NCBI RefSeq assembly: GCF_000337355.1
Contig: NZ_AOJH01000086.1
Span: 1-35,294, forward strand
Source of the DNA: Halorubrum kocurii JCM 14978
GTDB taxonomy: Archaea > Halobacteriota > Halobacteria > Halobacteriales > Haloferacaceae
Direction: 5' to 3'
DNA length: 35,294 nucleotides
Below the pieces are notes generated by a model. It was not told where the DNA came from. It saw only the letters and a list, made by a program, of their open reading frames with translations, and searched no databases. The translations under genes were made by a program, and so were the position numbers. The stretch's first letter is position 1. Every line of letters begins with the position of its first letter. Positions 14,993 through 35,294 of this stretch are shown piece by piece.

Positions 14993-15919
14993 TCACCGTG
15001 ACCGACCGGTGTCCCGTGTTTGACCCACGCGCTCGGCCGCTTCGATGAGCGTGCCGAGCGTCCGTTGGACGTCGTCGTTGCGCAGCGCCGACACGAGTCC
15101 CAACACGCCGACCCGTCGGTCGGCCGTCTCGTCGGTAAACGCGCTCGCACCGGCGTCGAGCGTCTCGACGATCTGCGGGTCGCTCGCCCGCTCGGCCAGG
15201 TCGGTGGCCTGTCCCAGCTGCGTGCCGAGCCGGTAGTACTCCTCGGTGCTGCGGTCGGCGGCATCGCCGAACCCCTCCACGAGCGCGAGGAGCCCGCGGA
15301 CGGTCTCCATGTTCTCGCCGAGCGCGACGAGTGCGTCGACGGACTCCGCACGGTCGAATGCCGTCGCGAGTCGGCGGACGTCTTCTCGCGCAGCCGCGGC
15401 GGCCGCCTCGTCCTCGGGGGCAACGTCCGCCAGCGCGTCGCTCGCGACTTCGAGCGTCGACAGCAGGTCGAGGAACGTGTCGGTGTTGTGGCCGATCCGG
15501 CGCAACAGGACCAGCGTCTCCTCGCGTTCGAACGCCACGCGGAGCTGCGCGATCTCCCCGCGGTTCTCGGCGGCCACGGTACGCAGTTCGGGGACGAGCT
15601 CCGCCGAGAGGTCCTGTGCGACGACCACCAGATCGAGGAGATCGGCCAGCGAATCGGCGTTGTCGCCCACTTGCTCGATCAGCCGCCTCGTCTCCTCGTT
15701 CTCGAGGGACGACCGCAGGTCGGCCAACGGCTCGCGGTTCTCCGCCGCGGCCGTCCGCAGCTCCGGGACGAGGTCCTCGCTCAGGCCGCGCACGACGGCG
15801 AGCAAGTCCAACAGCGCGATCAGGTCGTCGGCCTGCGCGTTTACGCGCGCGACCAGTTCGTCCACGTCGGCGCCGTCGCCGGTCGCGAACGCGTCCACGT
15901 CTGCTGATGTCTCACTCAT
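14993..15919 (-). CDS. DUF1641 protein with internal duplication
   Basis: A 308-residue acidic, mainly alpha-helical soluble protein, last gene of the tusA-SQR operon. Two near-identical blocks (LVPELRTAAAENREPLADLR and LVPELRTVAAENRGEIAQLR) show an internal duplication. The C-terminal part (residues about 200-300, ending VGVLGLVSALRNDDVQRTLG) matches the end of the shorter DUF1641 protein at 17119 (IGLLSALRDPEVKAGMGYLV), which identifies the family. DUF1641 proteins often neighbour SQR-like flavoproteins and formate dehydrogenases, and their role is not established. The ATG at 15919 lies four bases after the stop of the flavoprotein gene upstream. Confidence 0.82.
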   Translation of the reverse strand: MSETSADVDAFATGDGADVDELVARVNAQADDLIALLDLLAVVRGLSEDLVPELRTAAAENREPLADLRSSLENEETRRLIEQVGDNADSLADLLDLVVVAQDLSAELVPELRTVAAENRGEIAQLRVAFEREETLVLLRRIGHNTDTFLDLLSTLEVASDALADVAPEDEAAAAAAREDVRRLATAFDRAESVDALVALGENMETVRGLLALVEGFGDAADRSTEEYYRLGTQLGQATDLAERASDPQIVETLDAGASAFTDETADRRVGVLGLVSALRNDDVQRTLGTLIEAAERVGQTRDTGRSR

Positions 15920-15923
15920 GGGG

Positions 15924-17099
15924 TTATGGGACCGGGTCGTAGCCACGCATCCAGACGTTCCAGTACAGCGACGGGATCACGTTGATGTCGAGGATCCAGT
16001 TGAGTCGGCTCACAACCGGTGCGGAGATGGGACTCTCGTAGTCGAACTCCGCGATCATCGCCTTCCCCTTCTCGACGAGAATCGGACAGGCGGTGTACCC
16101 GTCGTAGTCGGAGGCGAGCGACCGATCGTCGAGGTACCGCTCGACGTTGTCCACGACGACATGCGACTGTTTGCGCGCGGCCGAGGCGGTCCGCGAGGTC
16201 GGTACGTCGGCGTTGTCGCCGAGCGCGAACACGGTCGGATACGCCTCGTGTTGGAGCGTGTTGTCGTCGACCGAGACGTACTCGCCACCGTCGGTCAACG
16301 GAGAATTCTCGACGACGAACTCGTGTCCGTACTGCGGCGGAACGGGCGCGTACAGGTCGTACTCCAAGGCGTCGCCCTCCGCCGAGCGGACCGTCTGGTG
16401 TTCGTAGTCGACCTCGGAGACGGTGAACTCCGGCACGAACGTGATGTCGCGGTCGTCCCAGATCTCCTCGATCCGCTCTTGATACGGCGCCTTCGGCCCC
16501 GTACCGAACACCTCCGACCCGGGCTTCGTCATCACGATCTCGGCGTCCTCGCGAACACCGCGTTTACGGAGGTACTCCTCCATCAGCATCGTGAGCTTCA
16601 GCGGTGCGCCGCCGCACTTGATCGGCGTGTCCGGGACCGTCACGAGGAAGCGCCCCCCGTCGAACTCGTCGACCGCGTCGCCCAGCGCTCGCGCCGCGGA
16701 GGCGTGATAGAACGGATACACCGAATCCGTCTGGTTCCAGCCCTCGATCATCCCCGGGACCGCATCCGGACGGAGGTCGTTCCCGACCGCGGAGATGAGG
16801 ATGTCGTACTCGTAGGTGCCATCCTCGCCGGAGACGGTCCGTTCGTCCGGGTCGACCCCGACAATTTCGTCTTGAACGAACCCGATGTCGTCGTGGAGCA
16901 ACTCCCGCGTGTCTCGCTGCTGCTCGTCGAGGTCCATGTACCCGAACGGGATCAGGTAGTAGGCCGGCTGGTAGCTGTGCGTCCGGCGCTTGTCGATCAC
17001 GGTCACGTCGGCGTCGATGCGACGACGGAGCGCGTTTGCCGTCATCGTCCCCGCGGCACCGCCGCCGAGAATGAGGACGGTTGGTCGTGTTGCAGTCAT
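15924..17099 (-). CDS. Sulfide:quinone oxidoreductase-like flavoprotein (second copy)
   Basis: A 391-residue NAD(P)/FAD-dependent oxidoreductase of the SQR/type II NADH dehydrogenase fold. FAD-binding GGGAAG lies at residues 12-17 and the second FAD site is VFALGDNADVP. Two cysteines sit where SQR carries its redox pair, Cys162 (PIKCGGAPLK) and Cys338 (YTACPILVEKGK). This supports sulfide or persulfide oxidation with transfer of electrons to membrane quinone. A hydrophobic C-terminal stretch (LNWILDINVIPSLYWNVWM) could attach it to the membrane. Its nearest visible relative is the flavoprotein at 17787; the two probably arose by duplication and may have different substrates. Confidence 0.88.
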   Translation of the reverse strand: MTATRPTVLILGGGAAGTMTANALRRRIDADVTVIDKRRTHSYQPAYYLIPFGYMDLDEQQRDTRELLHDDIGFVQDEIVGVDPDERTVSGEDGTYEYDILISAVGNDLRPDAVPGMIEGWNQTDSVYPFYHASAARALGDAVDEFDGGRFLVTVPDTPIKCGGAPLKLTMLMEEYLRKRGVREDAEIVMTKPGSEVFGTGPKAPYQERIEEIWDDRDITFVPEFTVSEVDYEHQTVRSAEGDALEYDLYAPVPPQYGHEFVVENSPLTDGGEYVSVDDNTLQHEAYPTVFALGDNADVPTSRTASAARKQSHVVVDNVERYLDDRSLASDYDGYTACPILVEKGKAMIAEFDYESPISAPVVSRLNWILDINVIPSLYWNVWMRGYDPVP

Positions 17100-17118
17100 C
17101 GTGAGTGTAATTTGATCG

Positions 17119-17787
17119 TCATGAGTCGTTCAGTTCGCTCAGGTCCGGCCCCGTAGCGCCGATTCCGCGGGCCACGGCGACGAGATATCCCATCCCCGCT
17201 TTGACCTCGGGGTCGCGCAGGGCACTGAGCAGGCCAATTGGTCCGACCGGCTCGGCTTCGCCGGAACCGGCTTCGCCGACGCCGTCCAACATGCGAACGA
17301 GCCCGTGGCTCACCTCCTCTTCGGTGGCCGTGTCGGCGAGCTCGCCCAGAGCGGTGCCGGTCGCAGCGACGGTTTCCACCATCTCGTCGTCCATCGCGTC
17401 GGTCAGGAGTGCGACCGCGTCGGCGAGCTCCGTGAGGCGGTCGAGGGTACCGGTCCGCTGGAGCACAGCGATCTGCCGGACGGCCGCGGCGAGCTCCTCA
17501 CCGCTCTCCCCGACGGCCGCACCGAGTTCGACCGTCTCCCGGTCGGCGAGCTCCGTCGCGGCCAGACCGAGCGTCGTCGCGTCGCTCGCGAGCGACTCGA
17601 CCATCTCGTCGTCGAGGCCGTCCTCGACGAGCGCGAGCGCGTCGAGCGTCGCCGACAGCTGCCCCGACTGTTCCAGCAGTGCGGCCACGGTCTCGGGATT
17701 GTCCGCGATCGCCTCGCGGACCTCCGGCGGGAGCGACTCCGCGTCGGCACTAGCAGTGTCGACCGATCCGTCGTCAGTCGCGCCCAT
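17119..17787 (-). CDS. DUF1641 protein
   Basis: A 222-residue acidic helical protein with the DUF1641 C-terminal pattern (VGPIGLLSALRDPEVKAGMGY). It lacks the duplicated N-terminal blocks of the larger paralogue at 14993. The ATG at 17787 shares bases with the TGA of the upstream flavoprotein gene, which implies translational coupling and a tight stoichiometric partnership; a GTG at 17790 is the only alternative. Each flavoprotein in this operon is followed directly by a DUF1641 gene, so a complex between the two is a reasonable inference. A role as electron-transfer or membrane-docking partner is unproven. Confidence 0.85.
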   Translation of the reverse strand: MGATDDGSVDTASADAESLPPEVREAIADNPETVAALLEQSGQLSATLDALALVEDGLDDEMVESLASDATTLGLAATELADRETVELGAAVGESGEELAAAVRQIAVLQRTGTLDRLTELADAVALLTDAMDDEMVETVAATGTALGELADTATEEEVSHGLVRMLDGVGEAGSGEAEPVGPIGLLSALRDPEVKAGMGYLVAVARGIGATGPDLSELNDS

Positions 17788-18932
17788 CACAACACCCCGC
17801 GGGCGGTCAACCAGTACGACTGGTTGTACCCGAGCTTCGACCAGTGGATGAGCGTGGAGGGCGGCTTCGGCGTCGGCTCCTCCTCGTAGTCGAAGGCGAT
17901 GTACGTCGCCTCGTCCTCGCCGCTCTCGATGAAGCAGACTGTCTTACCGTCGTACTCGGCGGTGGGACGCTCCCCTCGGACGACGCTCGATAACCGGTCG
18001 GCCAGGGACGTGGCCGCGTAGTGGGCCGCACTCCCGGCCTTGCTCGTCGGGAGGTCTGCGATGTCACCGAGGGCGTACACGTTCTCGGCGGCGGTCGCCT
18101 CGAGCGTCGCCGGGTCGACATCGACCCAGCCGTCGTCGCCGAGTCCGGCGTCCCGGACGACGTCGCTCCCGTCGTGCGGCGGGATAGACACCAGCAGATC
18201 GTACGACAGCTCCCGCCCTTCGACCGTGTGGACGACCGTATCGTCCGGATCGACCCGCTCGGGGTTGAAGAACGTCTCCACGGTGATGTCCCGCGCTTCC
18301 ATCAGCGGCCCGACCCACTCGGCCACGGACTCGATCCCGTGAGCGCGGTTGATCGGGTAGGTGTACGTGATCTCGACGTCCTCGCGCAGCCCCCGCTCGC
18401 GCAGCCACGTATCGGCCATGAGCGGGAACTCCAGCGGTGCGACCGGACACATGTGTGGCACGCCGATGACCGACATCACGAGGTGGCCCTCGGTGAACTC
18501 CGCGAGCGCCTCGCGGAGCGCCGCCGTCGCCTCGGGCCCGTAGAAGTGGTGACCGCCCTCGACCAGTCCCGGCGTCTTCTCCGGGGTCACCTGTGCGCCC
18601 ATCGCGAGCACGAGGTGGTCGTACGCGAGGTCGTCCCGGCCCCCGTCGAACGAGACCGTCTCGGCGTCGGTGTCGACGGCGCTGACCCGATCGATCATCA
18701 ACTCTACGCGTCCGTCGATCAGGTCGTTGAGCGGTCGCTTCGCGTCTTCGGGCGTCTTCTCGCCGAAGGGGACGTACAGCCACGTCGGCTTGTAGACGTG
18801 TTCCTCGCTGTCGTTGATGAGGACGACCTCGACATCGCCCGCGTCGATCTCCGCGGCGACCTCATCTGCGAGGCTGTTCGCCAAGACGGATCCGGCCGTC
18901 CCACCGCCGACGATGACGACCCGTTCAGTCAT
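17787..18932 (-). CDS. Sulfide:quinone oxidoreductase-like flavoprotein (first copy)
   Basis: A 381-residue FAD protein of the SQR group. GGGTAG (residues 9-14) binds FAD, NVYALGDIADLPTSKAG is the second FAD site, and the putative redox cysteines are Cys162 (PHMCPVAPLE) and Cys333 (KTVCFIESG). The C-terminus (STLIHWSKLGYNQSYWLTARG) is amphipathic and may sit on the membrane. It overlaps the tusA gene by eight bases and the following DUF1641 gene by one. It likely oxidises sulfide or a protein persulfide and reduces quinone. The first Cys context differs from that of the second copy (MCPVAP versus KCGGAP), consistent with a different sulfur acceptor. Confidence 0.88.
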   Translation of the reverse strand: MTERVVIVGGGTAGSVLANSLADEVAAEIDAGDVEVVLINDSEEHVYKPTWLYVPFGEKTPEDAKRPLNDLIDGRVELMIDRVSAVDTDAETVSFDGGRDDLAYDHLVLAMGAQVTPEKTPGLVEGGHHFYGPEATAALREALAEFTEGHLVMSVIGVPHMCPVAPLEFPLMADTWLRERGLREDVEITYTYPINRAHGIESVAEWVGPLMEARDITVETFFNPERVDPDDTVVHTVEGRELSYDLLVSIPPHDGSDVVRDAGLGDDGWVDVDPATLEATAAENVYALGDIADLPTSKAGSAAHYAATSLADRLSSVVRGERPTAEYDGKTVCFIESGEDEATYIAFDYEEEPTPKPPSTLIHWSKLGYNQSYWLTARGVL

Positions 18933-19170
18933 TGATCTGGACGTACAATTCCCAGTGGTCGCCGCGATCGAGCACCTCCAGCAGCTCGTTTCCCGACTCC
19001 TCGGCCCACTCCGCGACGTCCGGTTCTGTGCCCTCGTTGGAACTCTGCAGTCGGATCACGGTTCCCGGATCGACGTCTTTCGCTTTCCCGATCAGATCCA
19101 TCATCGGACCGGGACACGACGATCCGACCGCGTTCACCGTCACGTCAGCCTCGAGTTGTGTGTCGCTCAT
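18925..19170 (-). CDS. TusA-family sulfur carrier protein
   Basis: An 81-residue protein with the TusA CPxP motif (SSCPGPMMDL, active Cys19), close to the usual family length. TusA carries sulfane sulfur as a cysteine persulfide between sulfurtransferases and oxidising enzymes. Here it is first in the operon with two SQR-like flavoproteins, so it is likely a sulfur donor or acceptor in reduced-sulfur oxidation rather than only in tRNA thiolation. The ATG at 19170 is preceded by GGGGTGA. A perfect palindrome lies 50-67 bases upstream. Confidence 0.9.
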   Translation of the reverse strand: MSDTQLEADVTVNAVGSSCPGPMMDLIGKAKDVDPGTVIRLQSSNEGTEPDVAEWAEESGNELLEVLDRGDHWELYVQIND

Positions 19171-19219
19171 TCTGTGTCACCCCACAACAGATCGTCATGA
19201 ATGATGCACATCTACATTC

Positions 19220-19237
19220 AGTTGTCGCACGACAACT
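19220..19237. promoter_or_regulatory. Palindromic operator upstream of tusA
   Basis: AGTTGTCGCACGACAACT has perfect 8-base arms around CA. On the minus strand it directly precedes TATA-like GAATGTAGATG (about 19209-19219), so a bound factor would sit at the BRE/TATA edge of the tusA operon. The inner form GTTGTC-N4-GACAAC recurs at 21223-21238. The rest of the 341-base gap (19171-19511) holds only a weak TATA-like TGTAAATAC near 19367 on the plus strand. Confidence 0.6.
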
Positions 19238-19511
19238 TCTGAGTCCGCATCGGGGAGGCGATTCCGCCACCCCCGGCGAGGAGTGCGACGACCGTCGAGA
19301 TCAGCAAGGGCGTCGGAGCGCACCCGGTATCTTGCGGGGCGAATGGGAGAGCCTCACACGGGACGATGTAAATACGTCGAACCCGTACCGCACATGTCGC
19401 CCAGAGCCGCCCGAATCGGACACCGACACACGACGATGCACATCCGCTCCGCCATCGATATTCCAGCCGCCCGGAACCCAGGCCGCTCTCACCAACCGAG
19501 TTCACCGCCAG

Positions 19512-20231
19512 ATGTACGACTTCACCTTTGAGATAACGTACGACGCCGGCGCCGACGAGTACGTCGACCTGTTCATCGATCGCGAGTCCCTCCGATCGGA
19601 GGCACTCTTCTCGTGTTTCGACCCGACGGAGCTGTGGGCGCTCGAGTCGGTGACAGGCGATCCGACGGACCTCGCGGCCGTCGACGAGCTGCTCTTGGAC
19701 GAGGCCGTCGACCGGGAGTCGATCAGCGCCCGAGCGTGTAACTCGACCCGAACGGCGAGTCTGCTGACCGAGGAGCAGCGACGGAGAGTCGCGTACACGT
19801 ACATCTCCGACGTAGACTTCTGTGAGTCCGTCCCGCTCATCGCGGCGAAGTACGTCGACGGTGGGATGCTTCTGGAGCAGACTCGGACCGATGACAGGGT
19901 TCGATGGCGCGTGTTGGTGCAGGACGATTCGAAGATCGGGCACCTGTATGACACGCTGTCTGCAAAGCTCGGCGAGGGGCTCTCGTTCTCTTTCAAGCAC
20001 CTGACGGAGGTGGACCACTGGGAAAGCGGGCTCCTCTCGCGAGCAGACATCCGCGCGGAACAGCGTGAGACGTTGAACGTGGCAGTCGAGCGCGGTTACT
20101 TCGAGACGCCGCGAGAAGTGACGCTCGACGAACTCGCTGACGAACTCGAGTTACCGCGGTCGACCGTGTCGTATCGACTCCGACGAGCGACCGCAGAACT
20201 GGCTACACGATTCGCAGAGCAGCAACTATGA
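19512..20231 (+). CDS. Bat-type HTH transcriptional regulator
   Basis: A 239-residue regulator. The C-terminus has the bacterio-opsin-activator HTH pattern (VAVERGYFETPREVTLDELA, ELELPRSTVSYRLRRA). The N-terminal 170 residues are a Bat-associated sensor-like region without transmembrane segments or an obvious ligand motif; Cys residues occur in LFSCFDPTE, ARACNSTR and DFCESVP. The ATG at 19512 is chosen although the frame is open to 19158, because the extension overlaps the tusA region and is low-quality. It overlaps the rhodanese gene by four bases and diverges from the tusA-SQR operon, so control of sulfur oxidation is the likely job. Confidence 0.88.
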   Translation: MYDFTFEITYDAGADEYVDLFIDRESLRSEALFSCFDPTELWALESVTGDPTDLAAVDELLLDEAVDRESISARACNSTRTASLLTEEQRRRVAYTYISDVDFCESVPLIAAKYVDGGMLLEQTRTDDRVRWRVLVQDDSKIGHLYDTLSAKLGEGLSFSFKHLTEVDHWESGLLSRADIRAEQRETLNVAVERGYFETPREVTLDELADELELPRSTVSYRLRRATAELATRFAEQQL

Positions 20232-21148
20232 CCGGCGAGAACCCACCAGAGAACGGCACGCGGACAGACCCCGACGCATCGGCAGAAACGGAGTACCCAA
20301 CAGACGTGCTCGTCAGCCCCAACTGGGTCGACGCGCGGCTCGATCGGTTTGCCACCGCCGAGCCGGACCTCCGGCTGCTCGAAGTCGACGTCAACACCGC
20401 GTTCTACGACACGGGTCACGTGCCGGGTGCCGCCGGCGTCGACTGGCAGACCGACCTCCGATCGGCGGATTCACATGACATCCTCGGTGCCGACGAGATG
20501 GCGTCGTTCCTCGGAGCGCGTGGAATCACCGAGGAGACGACCGTCGTCGTCTACGGTGACAACTCGAACTGGTTCGCAACACATCTGTACTGGCAGCTCA
20601 CCTACTACGGCCACCCCGACGTCCGTATTATGGACGGCGGTCGCGAGTACTGGATGGACTACGACTATCCGACCACGACAGAGCCGGTCGATCCACCCAC
20701 CGTAGAGTACGAGGGCACGTTCGGTCCGCCGGCCAAGCCGGAGGTTCGAGCCCATCGCGAAGACGTGCGAGACGCCCTCGACACCGAGACGGTGTTCATC
20801 GACGTGCGCCTGCCCGAGGAGTTCCGCGGCGATATCACGAAACCGCCCGGAAGTAACGAGGGGGCGATGCGTGGCGGCCATCTCCCCGGGGCAAGAAACG
20901 TCTTCTGGGCCGAGAACGTCCGCCCCGACGGCCGGTTCAAGTCGGTCGACGAGCTCAGAGACGTCTACGAGTCGCACGGGATCACTCCCGATGACGACGT
21001 GATCGTCTACTGTCGGATCGGCGAGCGCTCGTCGGTCACGTGGTTCGTCCTGCAAGAGCTACTCGGGTACGAACGCGTGCGGAACTACGACGGCTCGTGG
21101 ACCGAGTGGGGGAATATGATCGGCGTCCCGATCGAAATCGACGAGTAG
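20228..21148 (+). CDS. Two-domain rhodanese sulfurtransferase
   Basis: A 306-residue thiosulfate/3-mercaptopyruvate sulfurtransferase. The inactive N-terminal rhodanese domain spans about 25-155 (VLVSPNWVDARLD, YDTGHVPGAAGVDW). The catalytic C-terminal domain spans about 170-300, with Cys262 in the active-site loop YCRIGERSS. The CRIGERS loop is the form typical of thiosulfate sulfurtransferases. It transfers sulfane sulfur to a thiol acceptor, here plausibly TusA across the divergent promoter. The ATG overlaps the Bat-type regulator stop (ATGA). No signal peptide is seen, so it should act in the cytoplasm. Confidence 0.92.
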   Translation: MTGENPPENGTRTDPDASAETEYPTDVLVSPNWVDARLDRFATAEPDLRLLEVDVNTAFYDTGHVPGAAGVDWQTDLRSADSHDILGADEMASFLGARGITEETTVVVYGDNSNWFATHLYWQLTYYGHPDVRIMDGGREYWMDYDYPTTTEPVDPPTVEYEGTFGPPAKPEVRAHREDVRDALDTETVFIDVRLPEEFRGDITKPPGSNEGAMRGGHLPGARNVFWAENVRPDGRFKSVDELRDVYESHGITPDDDVIVYCRIGERSSVTWFVLQELLGYERVRNYDGSWTEWGNMIGVPIEIDE

Positions 21149-21222
21149 TCTCCAGCCGGTGCCCCACGGCTGACGTCGTTGGCTTCCGTGGTTCCCGTCC
21201 GTGACCGATCCAGGTTGCGTCT

Positions 21223-21238
21223 GTTGTCCTACGACAAC
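21223..21238. promoter_or_regulatory. Second GTTGTC-N4-GACAAC palindrome
   Basis: GTTGTCCTACGACAAC repeats the arm sequence and four-base spacing of the tusA-operon site at 19221-19236. It lies 75 bases after the rhodanese stop and 128 bases before the winged-helix gene at 21366. The shared site suggests one regulator for both units. Confidence 0.55.
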
Positions 21239-21365
21239 CGGACACACTAGCGTTCAGATTCGGAACATACGTCGATGAGGGGTTCCCTGTGCCGAGCCAA
21301 TCACAAGACAGGCGGAGAACCGAGAGTTGGGCCGAAGAATCGCACACGTGTGCTGTCCGTCCGTA

Positions 21366-21731
21366 ATGAGTAGCCTCAACGCTGAGTCTGAGAACTCGCC
21401 GCCTGCGGAGCCGCTTCTCAACGCGCTCGGCGTTGAAGCGAACCGGGACATCCTGTCGGCACTCGATGAGCCGATGACGGCCGCCGAATTAGTGACGACA
21501 TGCGATGTGTCGACTTCGACGGTGTACCGGAAGCTAAACATGCTCAACAGGATCGGACTGGTGAAAGAACACCTCGTGGTCGACTCCAAGGGCGGACGGT
21601 GTAGCCTGTACGAACGGAACGTCGAACGCATCTCGGTCTCGGTTGACGACGACGGCGGACTCGAAGTTCAACTCGAACGGCCGAGAGGCAATGTCGACGG
21701 AGAGAACGCGTGGGGAATGATCAACAGGTGA
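21366..21731 (+). CDS. Small winged-helix (ArsR-like) regulator
   Basis: A 121-residue protein with a single winged helix: LLNALGVEANRDILSALDEP, then the recognition part MTAAELVTTCDVSTSTVYRKL and a wing ending CSLYERN. This is the ArsR/HTH_20-like form used by many haloarchaeal repressors. Cys residues in TTCDVS (before the recognition helix) and GRCSLY (wing) could sense redox or sulfur, which is inference. It lies after the rhodanese gene on the same strand but has its own upstream region carrying the GTTGTC palindrome, so it may be autoregulated and may be the factor that binds both palindromes. Confidence 0.82.
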   Translation: MSSLNAESENSPPAEPLLNALGVEANRDILSALDEPMTAAELVTTCDVSTSTVYRKLNMLNRIGLVKEHLVVDSKGGRCSLYERNVERISVSVDDDGGLEVQLERPRGNVDGENAWGMINR

Positions 21732-25576: not shown

Positions 25577-26611
25577 CTATCGCAACAACCGGTACACGTT
25601 CGATTCGTACGTCTCGCGAACCTGGTCGCCCCAGTTGTGGGTGTACGTGTCGATCACGTCGTCGGCGACGTCCCCGCGGAGATACTTGACGACGCCACGG
25701 TCGCCGGTCCGGTCCCGAAGATGCGTCGTGAAGAAGTGCCGGAAGTAGTGCGGCGTGACGTTCTCGGCGGCGCCCCCGCCGGTGCGGTACCACCCCGCGT
25801 CGCGGGCGTGGCGCTCGACGACGTGCCTGACCGCCTGCGGGTCGAGCCGCTCGCCCCACCCCTCCGCGGTGCCGACGAACAGGGGTTCCGCGGCGGACGC
25901 GCCGTCCGGCCGCAGGGCGAGCCACCGTTTCAGCGTCCGCGCCAGCTCGTCGTCGACCGGGATCACGGTGGCGCGCTTCCGCTTGTTCGACGCCGTGCGC
26001 ACCTCGCCGTTCAGCTCCTCGCCCACCGTCGCGTCCGGGGTGACGTACAGCGAGTTCGGCCGGTCGGCGAGGGCCGGCCGCGTCCCCAGCGTGAAGGCCG
26101 TGCTGACCTCCTCGTCGTCGATCGCGAGGTCGCGGAGGTCGAGGTTGCACAGCTCTCCCACCCGCATCCCGGTCTTCAACAGCGTGACGACGAGCGCGCG
26201 GTGGAGCGGATGGCGGACGCCGGCGACGAACTCGCGCATAGCCGGGATTGACACGTCCCGCCGCGCCGGGTCCTTGTCGACCGTCTCGTCCATCTCCTCC
26301 ATCACGAGCGTCATCGGGTTCCCCTCGAAGACGCCGACCTCCGTCATGTACCCGTAGAACCGGTGGAGGTAGGCGGCGTACGTCGCCACCGTGCTGTCGG
26401 CGACGTCGCCGCGCAGCGAGTGGACGAACGCCATGCAGTCGCGGTGGGTGGCCGATCCGGGCGTCGTTTCGCCGTCGAGAAACGACTCGAACCGACGCAG
26501 GACGCGTTCGTAGGCGTCGCGCGTCCGCTCAGTCTTCCCGTGATAAGTGAGGTCCTCGATGAAGTACGCGACCGGATCGTCGACCTCGGCTGGCGCTCGC
26601 GTGCTACTCAT
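25577..26611 (-). CDS. Tyrosine recombinase (XerC/D-like integrase)
   Basis: A 344-residue site-specific recombinase. An N-terminal SAM-like core-binding domain (about 10-105) precedes the catalytic domain with Arg150 (TGMRVGELCNL), Lys210 (NKRKRATVIPV), His288 and Arg291 (TPHYFRHFFTTHL) and the nucleophile Tyr323 (DTYTHNW). At the position where Xer proteins have Gly-His or Gly-Trp, this one reads LRGDVADD, so Asp314 replaces the usual residue. It overlaps the DUF5805 gene by eight bases. No other phage or plasmid genes and no flanking att repeats are visible, so it is probably a resident chromosomal recombinase rather than part of a mobile element. Confidence 0.9.
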   Translation of the reverse strand: MSSTRAPAEVDDPVAYFIEDLTYHGKTERTRDAYERVLRRFESFLDGETTPGSATHRDCMAFVHSLRGDVADSTVATYAAYLHRFYGYMTEVGVFEGNPMTLVMEEMDETVDKDPARRDVSIPAMREFVAGVRHPLHRALVVTLLKTGMRVGELCNLDLRDLAIDDEEVSTAFTLGTRPALADRPNSLYVTPDATVGEELNGEVRTASNKRKRATVIPVDDELARTLKRWLALRPDGASAAEPLFVGTAEGWGERLDPQAVRHVVERHARDAGWYRTGGGAAENVTPHYFRHFFTTHLRDRTGDRGVVKYLRGDVADDVIDTYTHNWGDQVRETYESNVYRLLR

Positions 26612-33203: not shown

Positions 33204-33935
33204 ATGAAGGTACTCGGCGTCGCCGGCCCGTCGGACTCCGGGAAGACGACCCTCGTCGCGAGGCTCGCGGGGCGACTCAGCGATCGCGGGGCGGTGGGAA
33301 CCGTCAAGCGGCTCACTCACGAGCCCGACATCGACACCGAAGGGAAGGACACGGCCAGGCATCGGGCGGCCGGAGCGGCGCGCACCGTCGGCCTCACCGA
33401 CGACGGCGGGTGGTTCGGCACCGGCGACGGGTGGGCTCTCCGGGACGTGCTCGACGGCTTCGCCGGCGAGTGCGACTACGCCCTCGTCGAGGGGTTCAGC
33501 GACGGCCGTCTTCCGAAGGTGTCGCTCGGCGACCGACCGGTCGCGGCCCCGATGGTGGCCACGGCGGCCGACGCCGACGGCATCGACCTCGACGAGCTGA
33601 CGGAAACCGTGACGGACCTCCCGTCCTACGAGACTCCGGCGTCCCTGGCGGCGGCGATCCGCGGCTCGGTCAGGACAGGCGTTTCCGGAAGCGTCGCGAC
33701 GAGCACCGTCCCGGAGGCAGAAGTGGCTTCCAGTGACGAGGTGGCGACACAGGTGGAGGCGGCGGATCGTCACCTCCGTTCGATAGGCGGCGTCCGCGGG
33801 GCGCGCGTCCACCGCCAGCCGTCGCTCTTCGACGACCACGACGACCTCGTCTATCTGGTGGTGCTGGCCGACGACTCAGTGAGGGCGAACGAGGCGATCG
33901 GGAGGGCGCTCGATCGCCTCGTCGAGGCGGCCTGA
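33204..33935 (+). CDS. mobB: MobB with a MoaE-like C-terminal tail
   Basis: A 243-residue protein. Residues 1-150 are MobB: the P-loop GPSDSGKTT (8-16), VGTVKRLTHEPDIDTEGKD and YALVEGFSDGRLPKV, which matches the conserved MobB end. MobB is a GTP-binding partner in attaching GMP to molybdopterin. Residues 170-243 (HLRSIGGVRGARVHRQPSLF and VYLVVLADDSVRANEAIGRAL) resemble the C-terminal half of MoaE, the large subunit of molybdopterin synthase, but without its usual Lys-rich end. It may therefore be a remnant or regulatory domain. The neighbouring TorD and NrfD genes support a molybdoenzyme context. Confidence 0.8.
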   Translation: MKVLGVAGPSDSGKTTLVARLAGRLSDRGAVGTVKRLTHEPDIDTEGKDTARHRAAGAARTVGLTDDGGWFGTGDGWALRDVLDGFAGECDYALVEGFSDGRLPKVSLGDRPVAAPMVATAADADGIDLDELTETVTDLPSYETPASLAAAIRGSVRTGVSGSVATSTVPEAEVASSDEVATQVEAADRHLRSIGGVRGARVHRQPSLFDDHDDLVYLVVLADDSVRANEAIGRALDRLVEAA

Positions 33936-33967
33936 CTCCCCTCTGTTTGCGGCGTTCTCAAGAGCCG

Positions 33968-33994
33968 GATCCCTCGCTGAACGATCCCTCGCTG
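33968..33994. repeat. 12-base direct repeat after mobB
   Basis: GATCCCTCGCTG occurs at 33968-33979 and 33983-33994, a 15-base period, in the 139-base gap between mobB and torD. No function is apparent. Confidence 0.6.
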
Positions 33995-34074
33995 CAAAAG
34001 CGACGCGTGCGGGCAGCGAATCGATCGAGTGCACCCGCCGAGACACGGTCAATTTCGCAAGTCGAGTCGTTTCG

Positions 34075-34659
34075 TTATCCGACTACCTCTCGGGTCGTCG
34101 CTGCCAGCGATGCATACAACTGTTCAGACGTCTCGTCCTCAACGCGTCGCGTGAACTCGTCGGTCCAAGCGCGGAGATGTTCCTCACGGAACTGCTCGAG
34201 CCGCTCGTCGAACCCTTCTTCTGCCAGGTACGCGGCGAACTCTAATTCCGTCGCGAGATGGTCTGGAAGGTCCGAGTGGTCCTGCGCGGGCCGGACGCCG
34301 AACTCTCGATACCAGCGCGTGACCGCCATCGTGGCTGGTCCCTTGACCGGGCCGAGTTCGTCAGGGTCGTCGCGATCGCGGTAGACACTCTCGTATGGCG
34401 GACATGGCGGTCCTGCCGGGCCGATAAACAGCCTTGTGTGTTCGGTTCGAAGCTCTCCGAGGTCCACCGGACCGAGGTCACCGAACACCGGTTCTAACGC
34501 ACCGGCTTCGACGGCCTCGACGAGCCGGTGGCTGGGTTCCCGCCAACACTCGGCGAGGACCGCGTACATCGCCGCTGCGTCTGACTGGGGCGCGTCGTTT
34601 TCGGCGGTTCGTTCGGGCGAGCGCTCGCGTTCAATCGGCGTGTCCGTTTGGTTGGTCAT
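34075..34659 (-). CDS. TorD/DmsD-family molybdoenzyme chaperone
   Basis: A 194-residue, mostly helical cytoplasmic protein. TorD-family marks are LRTEHTRLFIGPAG, PCPPYESVYRD and DLPDHLATELEFAAYL. These chaperones bind the twin-arginine signal of a molybdenum reductase and keep it ready for cofactor insertion. The ATG at 34659 overlaps the stop of the NrfD gene (ATGA), so they form one operon whose catalytic subunits must lie beyond the window's right end. The client could be a DMSO/TMAO, nitrate, polysulfide or similar reductase. Confidence 0.88.
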   Translation of the reverse strand: MTNQTDTPIERERSPERTAENDAPQSDAAAMYAVLAECWREPSHRLVEAVEAGALEPVFGDLGPVDLGELRTEHTRLFIGPAGPPCPPYESVYRDRDDPDELGPVKGPATMAVTRWYREFGVRPAQDHSDLPDHLATELEFAAYLAEEGFDERLEQFREEHLRAWTDEFTRRVEDETSEQLYASLAATTREVVG

Positions 34660-35256
34660 TGGTCTCGTGTGCCGCCGTCGGCCGCGTACGATGGCTCTGC
34701 GTCGACTCGCTGAATCGGCACGTACTTCAGGCCGAGCGTGACGATAAGCGCCCCGAAGGCGATGATACCGAGGGTGACGGCGATCTCGACGATCGTCGGG
34801 GTGTACGTCCCCGCAGTCGCCCAGATAGTGGTCGTAATGCCCGTGTACTCGCCGCCGAGCGAGATACCGGGCGCGGAGTCGATGTTGGCGACCTCGTACC
34901 CCGTGAACACGAGGCGGATCCCTTCGAACATCGTCCCGACGACTGCGAGGACGCTCGCCGTGAAGATGACTGACACGCGCTTTCGGAGGGACGGGAGCGC
35001 CAGCATAGCGAGTGGAACCGCGCCGCCGACGACGGTCCACAGCCAGAAGTACACCGAGTCCCCGATGAGGAAGTTACTCATGATGGCCCAGAACTCGAAG
35101 TGATCCGCCCAGGCGTGTGGTAGTCGCTCGGCCGCCAAGAGGTACACCACGTGGAACGCGAGGAAGATTCCGAGGATCTTGCCCAGACTCGTGAGCTCCT
35201 CTCGGTCGACCTCGAAGTTCGTGTACCGGTCCGCGAGGACCGACACGACCAGCAGC
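34656..35256 (-). CDS. NrfD/PsrC-like membrane anchor, 5' end missing
   Basis: About 200 residues of a polytopic membrane protein with at least five helices (IFLAFHVVYLLAAERLPHAW, FLIGDSVYFWLWTVVGGAVP, SVIFTASVLAVVGTMFEGIR, IVEIAVTLGIIAFGALIVTL). This is the NrfD/PsrC/DmsC type, which carries electrons between quinone and the molybdoenzyme on the outer side. The real N-terminus is lost: the frame continues to 35273 as MCIRDR, but those residues are encoded by the adapter starting at 35257 and must be removed. It overlaps torD. Confidence 0.82.
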
Positions 35257-35294
35257 CTGTCTCTTATACACATCTCTGATGGCGCGAGGGAGGC
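35257..35294. other. Sequencing adapter: Tn5 mosaic end plus 454 primer A
   Basis: 35257-35275 reads CTGTCTCTTATACACATCT, the reverse complement of the 19-base Tn5/Nextera mosaic end. 35276-35294 is the exact reverse complement of GCCTCCCTCGCGCCATCAG, the Roche 454 FLX primer A. Together they fill the window's right end without a gap. This is library adapter, not genomic DNA or a natural transposon. It also explains the spurious MCIRDR start of the NrfD frame. Confidence 0.97.

Follow-up and report, generated by a model that had tools for sequence, protein, structure and literature searches.

Two SQR-like flavoproteins of Halorubrum kocurii are each paired with a DUF1641 protein, a probable quinone-coupling subunit

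A contig of Halorubrum kocurii JCM 14978 (NZ_AOJH01000086.1, assembly GCF_000337355.1; the 35,294 nucleotides (nt) analyzed are hereafter the window) harbored a sulfur gene module in which two flavoproteins resembling sulfide:quinone oxidoreductases (SQR), designated SQRA and SQRB, were each directly followed by a member of the DUF1641 family. The minus-strand genes were ordered tusA-SQRA-DUF1641-SQRB-DUF1641 and faced two paired genes, for a regulator and a rhodanese, and a gene for a winged-helix protein (Table 1). Gene coordinates and Pfam matches confirmed the tight packing of the five genes proposed by a first-pass annotation. The TusA and SQRA genes overlapped by 8 nt and the SQRA and DUF1641-A genes by 1-4 nt, SQRB started 19 nt after DUF1641-A, and DUF1641-B 4 nt after SQRB. 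On the plus strand, the regulator and rhodanese genes overlapped by 4 nt.

Table 1. Genes and putative operators of the sulfur module (positions in the window)
Feature	Position	Strand	Evidence or remark
DUF1641-B, long helical form, SQRB partner	14993..15919 (15919 = likely start)	-	PF07849 E 3.1e-8
SQRB, SQR-like flavoprotein, Cys162 + Cys338	15924..17099	-	phmmer vs PDB: human SQOR E 1.7e-57
DUF1641-A, SQRA partner	17119..17787/17790	-	PF07849 E 3.7e-13
SQRA, SQR-like flavoprotein, Cys162 + Cys333	17787..18932	-	phmmer vs PDB: human SQOR E 1e-44
TusA-family sulfur carrier	18925..19170	-	Pfam TusA E 1.3e-13
Perfect 16-bp palindrome GTTGTCGCACGACAAC, putative operator	19221..19236		upstream of tusA
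HVO_2928_N + HTH_10 transcriptional regulator	19512..20231	+	Pfam 5.8e-59, 7.2e-15; divergent from tusA
Two-domain rhodanese (sulfurtransferase)	20228..21148	+	Pfam rhodanese E 6.6e-32
Palindrome GTTGTCCTACGACAAC, putative operator	21223..21238		upstream of winged-helix gene
Winged-helix regulator (HTH_20/ArsR-like)	21327 or 21366..21731	+	Pfam HTH_20 E 3.6e-9

Both flavoproteins matched Pyr_redox_2 in Pfam (3e-19 and 4e-13) and had human SQOR as their best match in the PDB; they shared 33% identity with each other. Their paired cysteines aligned with the redox-active Cys201 and Cys379 of human SQOR and were invariant in all type A (118/118) and type B (17/17) sequences, which upheld the SQR-like positions initially assigned to them. 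The residue after Cys333 of SQRA was Phe in 118 of 118 sequences and the residue before it was Leu, Val or Ile in 117 (Met in one), matching the quinone-pocket pattern of the A. ferrooxidans SQR (Val355-Cys-Phe357; PMC9666304). SQRB displayed Ala-Cys-Pro around the C-terminal cysteine, near the Ser-Cys-Pro of human SQOR. The model of an SQRA homologue (L094) was superposed on human SQOR with Z 45.9 and a root-mean-square deviation of 2.5 over 383 residues; this VIA-align comparison of a fused SQRA-DUF1641 model covers the SQR part alone and is silent on the DUF1641 fold. Most SQR types harbor two C-terminal amphipathic membrane helices, whereas the models of two SQRA homologues displayed one C-terminal helical segment (residues 361-378 and 358-375). 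A single helix is likewise found in type VI SQRs (PMC9666304). Assignment to the selenoprotein subtype of type III SQRs (NF049943) was rejected, the matches (313 and 334 bits) falling below the NCBIfam cut-off of 525.

By sequence and modelled fold, both flavoproteins are SQR-like, as first annotated, and sulfide-dependent quinone reduction is predicted for them. They have the fold, the flavin adenine dinucleotide (FAD) site and the two redox cysteines in common with human SQOR and the bacterial and archaeal SQRs of types I-VI, for which no DUF1641-type partner was found described in the literature searched, whereas the SQRA and SQRB loci encode one. An identity as NDH-2-like NADH:quinone reductases devoid of sulfide chemistry, whether by loss or from the outset, and with DUF1641 in the role of YjlC, appeared very improbable. 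NDH-2 structures formed the next tier of fold matches after SQRs for the L094 model, and YjlC has been modelled as partner of YjlD, an NDH-2; however, the invariant SQR cysteines, the best sequence and structure matches to SQRs and the surrounding sulfur genes led to its rejection.

The pairing of SQR and DUF1641 is near-obligate in haloarchaea. PF07849 was present in 140 of 242 haloarchaeal genomes, and 140 haloarchaeal DUF1641 loci, a subset of all PF07849 matches with several loci per genome in some cases, were sampled with genes called by a custom script rather than an annotation pipeline. Laboratory strains of Haloferax volcanii also have DUF1641. DUF1641 lay directly behind an SQR-like flavoprotein gene in 133 of these loci (117 type A and 16 type B), at a spacing of -4 to +11 nt. 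Four other loci belonged to formate-dehydrogenase operons (L157, L162, L171, L173), as with ForE, and three were decayed (L068, L119, L152); in L119, a deletion had fused a truncated SQRA to DUF1641 in a single frame. SQRA genomes without a Pfam DUF1641 match (G051, G055, G083, G102, G154) had a degenerate DUF1641 adjoining SQRA (custom profile, E < 1e-30). Loci L205-L209 displayed a DUF1641 with a degenerate C-terminal motif, missed by PF07849 and still directly behind SQRA. A genome scan for SQRB gave matches in haloarchaea only, and DUF1641 followed SQRB in 31 of 31 named SQRB loci. Thus, the search of other haloarchaeal genomes, which could have found DUF1641 mostly independent of the flavoproteins, did not refute the proposed partnership. 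No description of the pairing was found in those parts of the open-access literature mentioning DUF1641 that were available to the search.

Outside haloarchaea, DUF1641 was located behind an SQR-like gene in 13 of 20 loci, and at least two non-haloarchaeal families showed the pairing. Families f13, f16 and f31, which belong to the same phylum, had such pairs with a more distant SQR (L235-L240; about 140-260 bits for SQRA). In the non-haloarchaeal family f15, DUF1641 was found behind EtfAB (L224, L242), behind the acetolactate synthase IlvBN (L227, L230) or divergent from an amine-dehydrogenase-like cluster (L225, L229, L234), all of which are possible further partners of the family. Inheritance of a common operon whose products do not work together would also produce adjacency, and pairwise distances for TusA correlated with those for SQRA almost as well as those for DUF1641 did (0.85 vs 0.91), so the congruence of SQRA and DUF1641 trees reflects linkage and proves little. 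Nevertheless, both SQR types showed the pairing although they are divergent and differ in gene context, and it was found in haloarchaea as well as at least two other families, which makes inheritance alone hardly credible. Chance adjacency was likewise rejected.

The surroundings of the pairs differed between the two types, which fits the two branches initially proposed for the module. TusA was encoded in 101 of the 117 SQRA loci, immediately upstream of SQRA in most, together with DsrE, YeeE and MBL-rhodanese genes in SQRA loci. The named SQRB loci encoded a homologue of the rhodanese of the module (28/31, mostly directly upstream), an MBL-rhodanese (29/31) and a peroxiredoxin (25/31). Genes for CydA and CydB occurred within 5 kb in 14 of 117 SQRA and 2 of 16 SQRB loci; of the 31 named SQRB loci, 12 had them at a distance of up to about 6 kb. 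Near a pair they were frequently the next genes of the operon, directly downstream. In species with that arrangement, it supports a flow of electrons through quinol to a bd oxidase, a type of oxidase that tolerates sulfide.

The same context bears on the electron donor. The flavoproteins could be quinone-linked and yet take electrons from a protein-bound persulfide (TusA-SSH, rhodanese-SSH) or from thiosulfate-derived sulfane sulfur instead of free sulfide, or run in reverse as sulfur reductases. The position of tusA immediately upstream of most SQRA genes, the DsrE, YeeE and MBL-rhodanese genes nearby and the rhodanese near SQRB agree with this alternative, as does the presence of SQRB in Natronorubrum thiooxidans. 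This alternative was nonetheless considered unlikely, as the two-cysteine relay and the overall fold match those of true SQRs and the sulfide-tolerant bd oxidases next to the pair point to the presence of sulfide.

Both DUF1641 proteins of the module scored above the Pfam gathering score (49.5 and 33.8 bits vs 21) and had a C-terminal motif in common. A phmmer search of the PDB with one DUF1641 sequence returned no relative. A profile built from 13 haloarchaeal DUF1641 proteins, searched against all PDB sequences with hmmsearch, matched ForE1 (E 2.6e-6) and HucM (E 9.6e-4). ForE is required for menaquinone reduction by the Bacillus subtilis formate dehydrogenase ForC, which in its absence did not reduce menadione and lost its bound menaquinone (PMC8808070), and HucM forms a hydrophobic stalk or tube to the membrane that serves menaquinone in the Huc hydrogenase (PMC10017518). 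The huc operon of Parageobacillus contains a DUF1641 gene (PMC12976888), the PDB entry 9a63 models YjlC with YjlD on the basis of crosslinking, and in co-cultured Ignicoccus a DUF1641 protein and an adjacent FAD oxidoreductase increased together (10-fold and 5-fold; PMC3149612). The statement of the first-pass annotation that the role of DUF1641 was not established is therefore out of date, ForE, HucM and YjlC having already linked the family to quinone coupling (PMC8808070, PMC10017518).

Comparison with these systems places the new pairs among known arrangements. The B. subtilis formate:menaquinone oxidoreductase ForCE (YjgCD/YrhED) likewise combines a catalytic subunit with a partner from an adjacent gene, whose DUF1641 part is homologous and which is needed for menaquinone use; there, catalysis falls to a Mo/Fe-S formate dehydrogenase, here to an FAD-containing SQR. 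In the Huc [NiFe]-hydrogenase of Mycobacterium smegmatis, HucM has the DUF1641 C-terminal motif and is the carrier of menaquinone between the membrane and the enzyme, but there the partner is a hydrogenase and HucM is established as a tetramer. YjlC with the NDH-2 YjlD, like the "NDH-2 membrane coupling protein" of the PDB, joins a DUF1641-like protein to a monotopic FAD quinone reductase of the SQR superfamily; the donor is NADH, not sulfide, and the sequence match is weak (E 0.016-0.039). Quinone coupling, known from these other enzymes, is thus the best-supported role suggested for DUF1641 by homology, and the new element here is SQR as a partner of the family. Obligate partnership as first proposed stood in so far as the pairing is close to obligate; exclusive partnership with SQRs was ruled out by the ForE, HucM and YjlC systems and the formate-dehydrogenase operons.

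A role of DUF1641 as a mere assembly or stability factor, scaffolding oligomers of the flavoprotein with no quinone delivery, could account for the need of the Huc oligomer for HucM and for the loss of most ForC activity without ForE. It appeared rather improbable, since ForC without ForE also loses its bound menaquinone and menadione activity (PMC8808070) and the HucM stalk is a hydrophobic tube that reaches the membrane (PMC10017518).

Some observations weigh against SQR and DUF1641 forming a dedicated quinone-linked couple. Two intact second SQRB copies (L218 and L219; genomes G182 and G064) had no adjacent DUF1641, and some non-haloarchaeal DUF1641 genes adjoined genes not obviously encoding quinone reductases (acetolactate synthase, L230). 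The profile matches to YjlC (E 0.016) and to the NDH-2 membrane coupling protein (E 0.039) were individually weak. Finally, two AlphaFold runs, in which natural in-frame SQRA-DUF1641 loci (L094, then the compact L037) were folded as one chain with the stop codon read as Gly, gave no confident interface (predicted template modelling scores of 0.68 and 0.76; about 17 paired alignment rows). The predicted local distance difference test was mostly above 90 for the SQR and mostly below 50 for DUF1641, whose C-terminal motif reached about 80. Given the tetrameric state in which HucM functions and the small number of paired rows, the lack of a confident interface does not count against a complex. A sulfide:quinone complex in which SQR and DUF1641 would interact physically is probable.

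Taken with its context, the five-gene unit probably encodes two quinone-linked sulfide/persulfide oxidases, each an SQR-like flavoprotein with a dedicated DUF1641 protein, and TusA as acceptor. In the manner of known SQRs, a relay formed by Cys162/Cys333 (A) or Cys162/Cys338 (B) would pass electrons from H2S or a persulfide to FAD, as the conserved residues and the fold suggest. According to gene context, TusA would then take up the sulfane sulfur in branch A; in branch B, it would go to rhodanese and to persulfide dioxygenase-type enzymes acting downstream. The DUF1641 protein, as a homologue of ForE and HucM, may bring menaquinone to the flavin and/or keep the enzyme on the membrane. Terminal oxidases would reoxidize menaquinol; in many species, this would be a cytochrome bd oxidase whose genes adjoin the pair. 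The preferred reading is that DUF1641 is probably a plug-in quinone-coupling subunit that here serves sulfide:quinone oxidoreductases whose sulfane sulfur goes to TusA or rhodanese. Of the two-branch sulfide/persulfide:quinone system first proposed, the SQR-likeness, the near-obligate pairing and the distinct A and B contexts stood, while the unestablished role of DUF1641 did not; the family is not specific to SQR.

The first description of the regulator in the facing unit as Bat-type held only in part: it possessed the HTH_10 DNA-binding domain, but its N-terminus was HVO_2928_N and no PAS or GAF match was found in Pfam. The palindrome GTTGTCNNNNGACAAC had exactly two matches in the 3.6-Mb genome, at 19221 and 21223, and with at most one mismatch the number expected in the window was 0.12. 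It was kept upstream of tusA in L074, L101 and L174, where cydAB was divergent, and beside winged-helix homologues in three Halolamina loci (L182, L183, L200). This 16-bp palindrome is likely an operator, and its conservation beside winged-helix homologues makes the winged-helix protein its likely binder. In the same Halolamina loci, homologues of the regulator, winged-helix and rhodanese genes were neighbors of MBL-rhodanese, SQRB and DUF1641, joined in L182 and L200 by peroxiredoxin and CydAB, an arrangement which suggests that the facing unit of the window belongs to branch B. Promoter and terminator scans gave nothing above chance, with bacterial models ill-suited to archaea.

The five-gene operon recurred in Halobaculum halobium and Halobellus limi, where it was plasmid-borne (about 86% DNA identity) and the match did not include the facing unit, and the five-gene unit was also present in G202, G217 and G171. 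H. kocurii encoded a third SQRA-DUF1641 pair on another contig (L143), in a context of the more usual kind. A tyrosine-recombinase/integrase gene was located near the module (25577-26611), in line with the plasmid location in relatives. At the window end (33204-35273), genes for MobB-like, nitrate-reductase delta (NarJ-like) and NrfD proteins were found, which raises the possibility of a coupling between sulfide oxidation and nitrate respiration. Behind the unpaired second SQRB copies of L218 and L219 lay a regulator-like gene and then two genes whose size matched CydA and CydB, with a paired SQRB-DUF1641 about 10 kb away.

By description, SQRs are monotopic membrane enzymes that act on their own. 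In haloarchaea a DUF1641 partner is nearly universal, and some other archaea have it too, which implies that the archaeal SQR has two subunits. More tentatively, and with the balance somewhat against it, DUF1641/HucM/ForE may be a general plug-in module for quinone delivery that formate dehydrogenases, hydrogenases, NDH-2, SQRs and perhaps also ETF systems have each put to use. In this reading, archaeal SQRs would be peripheral enzymes that do not insert C-terminal helices of their own into the membrane but are supplied with menaquinone by an oligomeric DUF1641 conduit. For sulfide metabolism in haloarchaea, the module also offers a candidate pair of regulator and operator. The pairing would connect one family of "unknown function" across four otherwise unrelated respiratory dehydrogenases, and it makes the idea of quinone delivery testable in a genetically tractable archaeon.

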